DNA from: Candidatus Nomurabacteria bacterium | GTDB taxonomy: Bacteria > Patescibacteriota > Minisyncoccia > Phycocordibacterales > UBA9973 | NCBI GenBank assembly: GCA_023267275.1 | Contig: JAHFNO010000008.1 | Coordinates: forward strand, 1-56,254 | Length of the DNA stretch: 56,254 nucleotides | Reading direction: 5' to 3' | Notes under the pieces: generated by a model | The model's database searches: none | What the model was told of the DNA's origin: nothing | What the model saw: the letters and a program-made list of their open reading frames with translations, nothing else | Translations under genes and position numbers: made by a program | In this document: positions 219 to 48,871 of the stretch, in pieces | How the letters are laid out: each line of letters opens with the position of its first letter | How positions within the stretch are numbered: the stretch's first letter is position 1

Positions 219-365
219 AACAAATCAAATACTATTGAATGCTTACACTTGCTCTGTCTTATAAAAACAAATGAGGACGGTGCAAGAACTTGTTCTCATG
301 ACATCCGAATGCTGTTTTTATAAAGTACTCTTTATAAAAGCTAGCGAGGAAAAATGTGTGCTATG

Positions 366-437
366 TGCGTGCGGTAGGAATCGGACCTACGACCTCTGTC
401 TTATCAGGACAGCGTTCTACCACTGAACTACGCACGC
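366..437 (-). tRNA. tRNA-Ile (GAT)
   Basis: Cloverleaf by hand: acceptor GCGTGCG/CGCACGC, anticodon loop CTGATAA (GAT), T arm GTAGG TCCGATT CCTAC. Confidence 0.93.
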
Positions 438-17724: not shown

Positions 17725-18081
17725 CTAGGCTCTAGCTTTTTCAGTCAATTTATTTAATATTTTCATTACCTCAACAAGATTTGTATCAATTTTAGAATAA
17801 TCAAATTTCTTTGCTCTAAATATTTCCTTGGAAATTATAATTTGTGTTTCTAATTCTGCTGCCGAAGCAAACGCTATTGATAAAAATCTTTTAAATTCAA
17901 TATCTCCTCCTCTCATTTTACCTTCCGCAATATTTGAAGGAATAGAAACAGCAGCACGGCGCATTTGTGATGTTAATCCAAATATTTCTTCTTTTGGAAA
18001 TTTATCGGTTAAATCATAAACAGCAACAACTACTTTTATCGCCTTTTGCCAAACTATAAGGTCTTTATATGTTGTATTCAT
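17725..18081 (-). CDS. Four-helix-bundle protein of the 23S rRNA intervening-sequence (S23/IVP) family
   Basis: YKDLIVWQKAIKVVVAVYDLTDKFPKEEIFGLTSQMRRAAVSIPSNIAEG, the typical family motif. Confidence 0.93.
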   Translation of the reverse strand: MNTTYKDLIVWQKAIKVVVAVYDLTDKFPKEEIFGLTSQMRRAAVSIPSNIAEGKMRGGDIEFKRFLSIAFASAAELETQIIISKEIFRAKKFDYSKIDTNLVEVMKILNKLTEKARA

Positions 18082-26465: not shown

Positions 26466-26512
26466 GGTTGTAAATAAAAAATCCTCATAAAGAGGAAAGA
26501 TCGAGGACTAAT

Positions 26513-26626
26513 CGTATCTTTCCGTGACGGCACTTTCGCATCGTCTTGGCTGGATGTGGCACCTTCTTATTTCTAAGGGTTGCCGGTGGGTCGTTGAGCC
26601 AGTCTCTCGCCACTCTCTTGATAACA
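26513..26626 (-). promoter_or_regulatory. SAM-I-type (S-box clan) riboswitch upstream of metK
   Basis: Minus strand: TTATCAAGAGAGTGGCGAGAGACTGGCTCAACGACCCACCGGCAACCCTTAGAAATAAGAAGGTGCCACATCCAGCC..GACGATGCGAAAGTGCCGTC..GATA; keeps S-box landmarks TTATCAAGAG, ACTGGC, CCGGCAACC, GGTGCCA, TCCAGC. Confidence 0.92.
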
Positions 26627-26689
26627 AACTATTTTATTGTAAATGGATTATACCAAAATTATAAAAGATCAGCTAGCTCATTCATAAAT

Positions 26690-46259: not shown

Positions 46260-47240
46260 TTAATACAAGGCAATCCCTACCCGCTTTTGCACTTTGTAAG
46301 TGTTGCCGTGACCAAGCAAACCTCTATATGAGCTTATTGTTTCGGGCTTCGGATATCCCTTTAGTTTTCTGATTAATTTCCGCTTTGTCGTAGTCCTGAT
46401 CTTTCGGTGATGCGGGAAATGGACCCAACCAAGGAAATCCACACCCGAACCATATGTTTTGATATATACCTTGTGAGGATGAAGTTTCAGTTTTAACCTT
46501 TCGTTCAGAAAATCATCAATCTTTGGAAGTAAATCTTCTAGATATTTTTTATTATCTGACAAAATAGCGAAGTCGTCTGCGTAACGAATATAATGTTTGA
46601 CCCGGAGTCCTTGCTTCATGTACATGTCAAACTCGTGCATGTAGATATTCACGAGAAGTTGAGACGTTAAATTTCCCAATGGCAACCCAACACCTTCTTG
46701 TTCCGTATGAAAACTTTTCACCACTTGGTTTATGAGCCAGAGTATTTCTTCGTCTTGGATATGTCTCTTCAGGATGGAACGCAAAATATCATGATCCACA
46801 CTCGCAAAGAATTTTCTTATATCGCATTTCAAAATGTAGCATGTACGCGTGTTATTTTTTGATACCCTGTCGGCAAAAACTTTGAAACGCTCAAATGCTC
46901 GGTGCGTTCCTTTGTGCTTCCTGCATGAGTAAGAATCAAAAATAAAACGTGAATCAAAATACCAATACAATTCTTTATAAATCAGATGGTGAAGAACCCT
47001 GTCTCGAACGATCGCCTTGTGAATGTTTCTCGGTTTGGGATCGGAAATATTAAAAGCTGAATACCCAGAATGTTCGTACGTTCTGTCTTTGAGCATGACG
47101 TAAAGTTCAATGAGATTATCCGACAGTTGGACTTCGAATTTCATAACGTCCTTCTTTTGCCTTTTCCCACAGATAAAATGATTCCATGTGGAGAGGATAT
47201 TTTCTATCGATATGATATTGTTATATTTATGAGTGAACAT
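46260..47240 (-). CDS. DGR-type reverse transcriptase
   Basis: YIRYADDFAILSD (RT domain 5), GLPLGNLTSQLLVNIYMHEFD (DGR-type xGxxxSQ in place of the usual SP), KPRNIHKAIVRDRVLHHL; start set at MFTHKYNNIISIENIL. Confidence 0.95.
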   Translation of the reverse strand: MFTHKYNNIISIENILSTWNHFICGKRQKKDVMKFEVQLSDNLIELYVMLKDRTYEHSGYSAFNISDPKPRNIHKAIVRDRVLHHLIYKELYWYFDSRFIFDSYSCRKHKGTHRAFERFKVFADRVSKNNTRTCYILKCDIRKFFASVDHDILRSILKRHIQDEEILWLINQVVKSFHTEQEGVGLPLGNLTSQLLVNIYMHEFDMYMKQGLRVKHYIRYADDFAILSDNKKYLEDLLPKIDDFLNERLKLKLHPHKVYIKTYGSGVDFLGWVHFPHHRKIRTTTKRKLIRKLKGYPKPETISSYRGLLGHGNTYKVQKRVGIALY

Positions 47241-47627
47241 AAGGAAACTACTAAACCTGCCATGACGCAAACCCCTCTCGTTTTGGTGAGAACCAAAGAA
47301 GCATACCGCACTTGGCACGACGCACTGGTTAAAGTGAATCGAGTCGATCGCTATACGATCGGTGCTCGAATCGATGAAACCTTCCTTTCCTTGCTTGAGA
47401 CTATTTTCAGAGCTACTTTCGCCCACGATAAATTTGAGAAGCTTTCTCTTGTTTCTGAGGCTTTAGGTAAAAACGATCTTCTGAAATTCTTTCTTCAGAT
47501 TGGCTGGGAACAAAAAGCTATTGATCATACTGTATACGGTGCACTGATTCTTAATCTCGACGAGGTTGGAAGGATGCTCGGCGGATGGAAGAAAAATCTG
47601 CAAGAAAAAACTCCCACCAACAAATAA
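47229..47627 (+). CDS. Avd-like DGR accessory protein
   Basis: YTIGARIDETFLSLLETIFRATFAHDKFEKLSLVSEALGKNDLLKFFLQIGWEQKAIDHTVYGALILNLDEVGRMLGGWKKNL; alternative start at 47262. Confidence 0.85.
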   Translation: MSEHKETTKPAMTQTPLVLVRTKEAYRTWHDALVKVNRVDRYTIGARIDETFLSLLETIFRATFAHDKFEKLSLVSEALGKNDLLKFFLQIGWEQKAIDHTVYGALILNLDEVGRMLGGWKKNLQEKTPTNK

Positions 47628-47640
47628 TGTGGTGGGAGAA
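47605..47640 (-). terminator. Terminator at the 3' end of the TR transcript
   Basis: Minus strand: CTCCCACCA ... TGGTGGGAG followed by TTTTTTC; the avd stop codon lies in the loop. Confidence 0.75.
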
Positions 47641-47651
47641 AAAAATGAGTA

Positions 47652-47770
47652 GCAGAAGCACAACAGGCAGTTGTCGTCATTCCAGTCATTCTCGAAGTAA
47701 CCGAGGTTGAACTTCCAGTCACCGTCCGAGTTGCGGTTCACGTTCGGCACCCTGTGGTTGCCGTCAGCGT
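47652..47770 (-). repeat. DGR template repeat (TR)
   Basis: 119-bp near-copy of 48116-48234; all 8 mismatches are at A (minus strand) in this copy. Confidence 0.97.
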
Positions 47771-48027
47771 ACGCACAAGCAATGTACGAGAGATCATCCA
47801 TTCCACCACGCTCAGCACCAGCCAAGCGTTGTATTTCATTCGGAGTTTTTAAACTCTCCAATATCTCGCACCGACTTATTTTTGTTTTTTCATAAAAGGA
47901 GGCACTCATCCGGAAGCCGTGACCGCCGAACCACTCGCCAAACCCTTATACGAGATTTCGACTCCGCGAAGCCTTGACCGCACGATAATATCTACTTTCT
48001 GGATATCAGTATATCGGATATTCAAAA

Positions 48028-48060
48028 TAAAAAAAGAGCCTTTGCTTTCGCAAAGGCTCC
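48028..48060 (-). terminator. 10-bp GAAA-tetraloop hairpin plus T tract downstream of VR
   Basis: Minus strand: GAGCCTTTGC GAAA GCAAAGGCTC TTTTTTT. Confidence 0.9.
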
Positions 48061-48106: not shown

Positions 48107-48772
48107 CTACTTGTCGCAGAAGCACAACAGGCAGTGGCCGTCATCCCAGTCATTCTCGAAGCAACCGAGGCTGAACTTCCAGTCACCGTCCGAGTAGCGG
48201 TCCACGCTCGGCACCCTGTGGTTGCCGTCAGCGTCTTCCCAGAGAGCGTCCTTCTCATCGAAGGAAACAGTCCATTTGGACACTGGGAACTGGTCCGCCT
48301 TGCTGTCCTGCAACAACGTGATGCCCTGTCCGCCGACGAGGATGGCCCCCTGCTTCTTCAGGAAGGTCATGCAGTCTCCGCTCGTTACTGTTGCCAGTAT
48401 CGGGAAGATTCGCACGCGGTAGGTTTTGCCCGGCTCGAGTTTGTTCGTCGCTTTCGCGAAGTTCTCGCTCGAGAGGTCATCGTTGAAGTAGTAGGTGGTC
48501 TTCAGCTTCTTGGTCTTCTTGGCGAAGGTGTCGAGCTGGGTGTCGTGCTTGTAGTCTGCCGGCACCGTAAACTCGAAGTCCTTCATCGCGGGACCGAAGC
48601 GCTGATCCACCATGGCGAGCTTCTGCAGGATGGGCTTCATTTGCTCTTGCAACGTGCCACCTGCTTTAATGATTTCCTGAGCCTCATCTTTCGAGAAGCC
48701 CAACGCACGAACCGCGTCTCTTACGAGATCGGCAATGCGATTTTCTTGGTTTGACGTGATCTTTTCAGTCAT
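48107..48772 (-). CDS. DGR target protein with C-terminal variable region (C-type-lectin-like VR style)
   Basis: MTEKITSNQENRIADLV...GNHRVPSVDRYSDGDWKFSLGCFENDWDDGHCLLCFCDK*; VR occupies the last ~40 residues; AAGGAAA before ATG. Confidence 0.93.
   Translation of the reverse strand: MTEKITSNQENRIADLVRDAVRALGFSKDEAQEIIKAGGTLQEQMKPILQKLAMVDQRFGPAMKDFEFTVPADYKHDTQLDTFAKKTKKLKTTYYFNDDLSSENFAKATNKLEPGKTYRVRIFPILATVTSGDCMTFLKKQGAILVGGQGITLLQDSKADQFPVSKWTVSFDEKDALWEDADGNHRVPSVDRYSDGDWKFSLGCFENDWDDGHCLLCFCDK
48116..48234 (-). repeat. DGR variable repeat (VR)
   Basis: Differs from TR at 48136, 48138, 48145, 48162, 48171, 48196, 48202 and 48207 only. Confidence 0.97.
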
Positions 48773-48842: not shown

Positions 48843-48871
48843 ATTATAGCAAAAACAACACTATTTGTCAA
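48843..48871 (-). promoter_or_regulatory. Perfect consensus sigma70 promoter for the DGR target
   Basis: Minus strand: TTGACA-17 bp-TATAAT. Confidence 0.9.

Follow-up and report, generated by a model that had tools for sequence, protein, structure and literature searches.

A Patescibacteria DGR lineage with a head-to-head avd and a structured RNA on the 5′ side of the TR

Detailed knowledge of template choice and priming in DGRs comes mostly from the Bordetella phage BPP-1, where a folded spacer on the 3′ side of the TR plays the central part. In that element (mtd-avd-TR-brt), the structured spacer 3′ of the TR recruits the bRT-Avd complex and supplies the adenine from which cDNA is primed, the avd sequence 5′ of the TR is where cDNA synthesis ends, and placing the TR RNA under its own promoter in a reconstituted system led to 35-fold activity (PMC12875486). 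Components distributed over two strands are known from the "inverted" DGRs of Shewanella, Vibrio and Photobacterium (DiGReF, PMC3521204) and from the G5 cassette (PMC6642488), which are rare, one-time events. In the Patescibacteria (CPR), Roux et al. (2021) delimited DGR clade 2, described as mostly cellular; their text on this clade is silent on avd, on its orientation and on an RNA leader (PMC8144416), and the orientation of avd may have been noticed earlier elsewhere.

The locus considered here lies in a stretch of 56,254 nt (contig JAHFNO010000008.1, referred to as the window) from a Candidatus Nomurabacteria assembly of about 1.02 Mb, and is carried by a provirus, with the genes for portal, head protease, major head protein and terminase on its flanks; the nearest named relatives by RT search belong to Candidatus Paceibacterota and Nomurabacteria. 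The same window as the provirus also contains a SAM riboswitch (26512-26627, minus strand) and a tRNA-Ile gene (365-437, minus strand), and the latter could be an attachment site. The components of the cassette are collected in Table 1. The RT matches phrog_1423 (E 6e-100), has the DGR-type GNLTSQ motif and groups with DGR RTs on the RT tree, and of the nine positions at which TR and VR differ, eight are adenines in the TR. Profile searches, Pfam and PHROG among them, gave no confident family, C-type lectin-like or other, for the target protein. A minus-strand ORF across the TR (47463-47909), considered as a second target, was discarded, since 1-nt indels between relatives and the RNA pairing speak against it.

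Table 1. Features of the DGR cassette and their positions in the window.
Feature	Position	Strand	Remarks
DGR RT, 326 aa	46260..47240	-	GNLTSQ and YADD motifs
avd (accessory variability determinant), four-helix protein, 132 aa	47229..47627	+	head-to-head with RT; alternative ATG 47262
avd/RT 5′-end overlap, 12 nt	47229..47240		
Terminator hairpin and U-tract directly 3′ of TR	47605..47638	-	avd stop codon in loop
TR	47649..47770	-	TR/VR mismatches mostly at TR adenines
DGR RNA structured 5′ leader/scaffold	47771..48001	-	
Leader P3-P5 domain	47778..47890	-	covariance model R1, 103 bits
Leader helices	P1 47985-47964; P2 47931-47908; P3 47871-47860 with 47795-47784; P4 47856-47843	-	
DGR RNA predicted -10 box TATACT	48008..48013	-	positional enrichment in relatives
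Target gene intrinsic terminator	48035..48060	-	
VR, target gene 3′ end	48113..48234	-	
DGR target gene, 221 aa	48107..48772	-	without confident family
Target promoter, sigma-70 consensus 12/12, extended -10	48843..48871	-	

The plus-strand ORF had been predicted to encode an Avd, lying on the opposite strand to the target, TR and RT and with a start overlapping that of the RT, and these points are borne out. The ORF (47229-47624) matches PF22296 (bAvd) above cut-off (E 1.4e-10) and phrog_3206, "Avd protein of DGR" (7.9e-16), with a further match to NF033474 (3e-14) that is below the cut-off of that model; an AlphaFold model built from 46 relatives reached a pLDDT of 94.6 (only 46 in the single-sequence version), and its best PDB match is the BPP-1 Avd (4dwl). 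Both bAvd and phrog_3206 were also matched by all 46 inverted genes tested. No alternative minus-strand avd, which the original prediction had named as one of the findings that would speak against it, is present between target and RT in the window. The two starts (47229 on the plus and 47240 on the minus strand) share 12 nt, and ATG 47229 sits at the commonest start position of the clade (offset -1; 22/152 loci). In the shortest reading, the gap between the avd and RT starts among 101 loci has a median of 7 nt, with overlap in 46 and a distance of 60 nt or less in 95. Across ten places of the window's genome (G000), eight or more four-helix genes match PF05635 (23S rRNA intervening-sequence), one of them at 17749-18066 of the window; such genes are relatives of Avd by fold.

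Relatives were gathered with the window RT from viral contigs, from the genomes of relatives, from phylum-wide genomes and from named genomes, and avd was placed in each locus by an iterated Avd profile, which also recovers the BPP-1-type Avd in a Bordetella phage, where it is codirectional. The avd is head-to-head with the RT in 159 related loci, including every locus with a visible avd at an RT identity of roughly 45% and above; of the latter, those carrying a name are all Patescibacteria, the others being bacteria or viral contigs. Where the RT is more distant, avd is mostly codirectional, also in several Patescibacteria (L175, L183, L185, L207-L209), and the codirectional controls keep the canonical order VR-avd-TR-RT on one strand; an avd on the TR/RT strand and upstream of the TR, as in BPP-1, was found in these canonical controls and not in the window. 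In a tree built from 143 non-redundant RT rows by a quick method with no bootstrap, the head-to-head loci form one clade of 121 rows (SH-aLRT 97), in which avd is visible in 117 and was not seen in four, and the orientation of avd changes once. The layout had been regarded as unusual for its kind; the comparison with close relatives returns the same head-to-head arrangement, which is the rule within this RT clade, and, being present in 159 related loci, reflects more than chance. The description of avd as inverted holds, while that of a gene merely flipped in place does not, since its order relative to the TR also differs (canonical avd-TR-RT, here TR-avd-RT): the order of the clade is VR-[RNA]-TR-<avd-RT>, in which avd is inverted and, in addition, relocated 3′ of the TR. 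Such a pattern might have arisen as an accident, avd having been inverted and moved once in an ancestor with no functional meaning, and the RNA upstream of the TR being either the former spacer in refolded form or some unrelated 5′ UTR; the single origin on the RT tree and the one-time inversions of RTs known elsewhere (PMC3521204) fit this explanation, which is nevertheless judged unlikely, as the arrangement is retained almost universally and none of the 117 non-redundant head-to-head RTs shows a reversion. Within the phylum, a single contig (G043:C32) carries a canonical codirectional DGR (L209) and, about 3 kb away, a head-to-head DGR (L048), and other Patescibacteria have avd downstream of the RT, either convergent (L174, L182, L184) or codirectional (L205, L206). 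The window's genome itself has a second head-to-head DGR (L194, G000:C22:65000-71500).

The geometry around the TR is equally constant. With TR/VR pairs located by diagonal scan, 141 of the 152 head-to-head loci show a TR immediately past the stop codon of avd (median distance 19 nt), and the VR ends another 341 nt (median) upstream of it; in the remaining 11 loci no TR was recovered, partly through contig ends. Over the 141 clade loci, 96.7% of the TR/VR mismatches are at adenines. A terminator-like hairpin on the TR strand follows the TR in 68 of 103 non-redundant loci (66%) vs 2% of shuffles, and in 44 of the 103 the avd stop is placed inside this hairpin or its U-tract; in the window, as originally predicted, the avd TAA (47625-47627) lies in the loop of a minus-strand hairpin (47638-47611) that is followed by T6. 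A structured spacer between TR and RT is absent: behind the TR come the avd stop, about 19 nt away, and in most loci a terminator; avd, having moved to the 3′ side of the TR, stands in for the 3′ spacer between TR and RT. The recurrence of this stop codon placement and of the tight starts in very divergent loci is a further point against a meaningless accident.

The convergence of avd on the TR, also part of the original prediction, is confirmed, and avd-strand terminators are at background level only (2%; 103 loci). The anatomy would thus let transcripts of avd extend antisense into the TR RNA, and it had been suggested that the layout exists for the sake of this antisense control: an avd mRNA lacking a terminator would enter the TR RNA gene and tune the level of guide RNA, or the expression of the RT, by antisense pairing or transcriptional interference. 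The terminator background, the stop codons within the TR terminator in 44 loci and the close 5′ ends of avd and RT (95/101 loci) are compatible with such a coupling; compactness by itself, however, explains this overlap, and no test speaks for antisense control rather than for an architecture that is simply fixed, so that the coupling appears improbable as the reason for the layout. The promoter signals do not add to it either. Boxes resembling a -10 element and directed towards avd occur within RT codons in 77 of 111 loci, yet the encoded peptide accounts for them, with no excess over the amino acid constraint (z 0.6 and 1.8), and the conservation of a putative avd promoter is no higher than this constraint; they were therefore rejected as a promoter signal, and for neither avd nor RT did a promoter stand out from the signal that the encoded amino acids impose. 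On the RT strand, RT codons 1-3 (about 47220-47232 in the window) show a mild excess of TATAAT-like boxes inside the gene (96 vs 80 expected from synonymous codons, z 3.2). With the two 5′ ends overlapping, avd and RT would each presumably have a promoter within the coding sequence of the other.

On the other side of the TR, the 250 nt between it and the target terminator are conserved in sequence among relatives, with 1-nt indels, and in these relatives -10-like boxes are concentrated at 220-250 nt before the TR, the corresponding box of the window being TATACT (48013-48008, minus strand). This non-coding element of about 230 nt is a strongly covarying structured RNA. In an alignment of 50 leaders, 38 of 43 pairs have compensatory changes on both sides, 94.2% of the pairing cells form a pair vs 65.7% in shuffled alignments, and the covariation is 0.868 vs 0.304 (sd 0.011) for shuffled and 0.15-0.20 for slid alignments; because the leader covaries this strongly, selection acts on the RNA, which is at odds with a functionless 5′ UTR left by an ancestral accident. 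A covariance model of the TR-proximal half of the leader (R1) matches 81 of 90 held-out head-to-head loci and none of 40 loci that lack a head-to-head avd; it failed on eight divergent head-to-head loci and does not match the leaders of a deep sister group (L176-L181), in which avd is head-to-head and the leaders, of another sequence, follow a similar fold plan (five sequences only). R1 occurs in 69 of the 379 genomes that make up a phylum sample, where 26 of the best 30 matches precede a same-strand RT by 0.5-0.8 kb; the second DGR of the window's genome scores 61.7 bits. The leader has no family in Rfam 15 above the gathering score; RT-9 reaches only 20-25 bits against a cut-off of 46, and the matches of RT-9 and BjrC68 on the window were judged to be due to chance. 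Matched vs mismatched duplex energies gave no signal of base pairing between leader and TR.

Since the element is upstream of the RT and on the same strand, it might be thought to act in cis on the expression of the downstream RT, in the manner of a riboswitch or an attenuator, rather than as part of the template RNA. Its position, however, is fixed relative to the TR start and not to the RT, a terminator separates TR and RT in 66% of loci, and cassettes of RNA, TR and VR exist with neither RT nor avd (L226), all of which make a cis-regulator very improbable. In L226 (G029:C8:5500-10000), the R1 RNA, TR, VR and terminator are present and 13/13 TR/VR mismatches are at A, with neither avd nor RT found nearby; further guide-RNA cassettes with no nearby RT or avd are located at G379:C7:106395, G327:C3:80599 and G173:C4:129137, and such cassettes suggest a supply of these proteins in trans.

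Compared with the described systems, the window shares with BPP-1 the DGR-type RT, the Avd fold (4dwl), the adenine-specific TR/VR mismatches and a hairpin behind the VR. It differs in that the BPP-1 avd is upstream of the TR on the same strand, whereas that of the window is inverted and 3′ of the TR, and in that the structured spacer of BPP-1 follows the TR, whereas the window lacks a spacer and has its structured RNA 5′ of the TR. The inverted DGRs (PMC3521204, PMC6642488) resemble the window clade in having components on two strands and a single origin, but their RT opposes TR and VR, while in the window avd alone is on the strand opposite to RT, TR and VR. A structured RNA adjoining a DGR TR is also known from Rfam RT-14 (RF02921), found in the canonical control L004 between TR and RT, and so 3′ of the TR, in contrast to the leader of the clade, which is 5′ of the TR and outside Rfam. 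The clade is very likely the same as DGR clade 2 of Roux et al., to judge from the agreement in phylum, both being DGR RT lineages confined to it; clade 2 was described as mostly cellular (PMC8144416), whereas the copy of the window is placed among phage head genes.

Taken together, these data point, with a probability of about 0.7, to a stand-alone guide-RNA gene whose folded 5′ leader is a likely substitute for the spacer, accompanied by a divergently transcribed avd and RT. The guide RNA, presumably transcribed as one unit, would be a small gene of its own, consisting of a promoter just behind the target terminator, the folded leader of about 230 nt, a TR of about 120 nt and a terminator, and avd, on the other strand and in the position of the canonical 3′ spacer, would diverge from the RT with overlapping 5′ ends. 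A separate gene for the TR RNA is plausibly advantageous, given that an own promoter for this RNA raised BPP-1 activity 35-fold (PMC12875486). The folded leader most likely replaces the canonical spacer by binding the RT-Avd complex and bringing it to the template, and most likely also sets the start of cDNA synthesis, although it could serve some other role. Since a folded RNA domain precedes the TR instead of following it, the rules for the start of copying in BPP-1 cannot simply apply. A broader reading, somewhat favored over its negation, is that the guide RNA is reversed in the whole DGR lineage, with the scaffold that binds RT-Avd 5′ of the TR, a priming that differs from that at the 3′-spacer adenine of BPP-1, and the inverted avd as the genomic footprint of this reversal.

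The head-to-head lineage occurs in ultra-small Patescibacteria and their viruses, and across one of the largest bacterial phyla it appears to be free of the spacer and to have another folded RNA at the opposite end of the TR. This makes it testable which parts of the RNA mutagenic reverse transcription truly requires, gives directed-evolution tools a compact natural design of guide RNA, and provides an RNA signature by which such elements, cassettes without an RT included, can be found.
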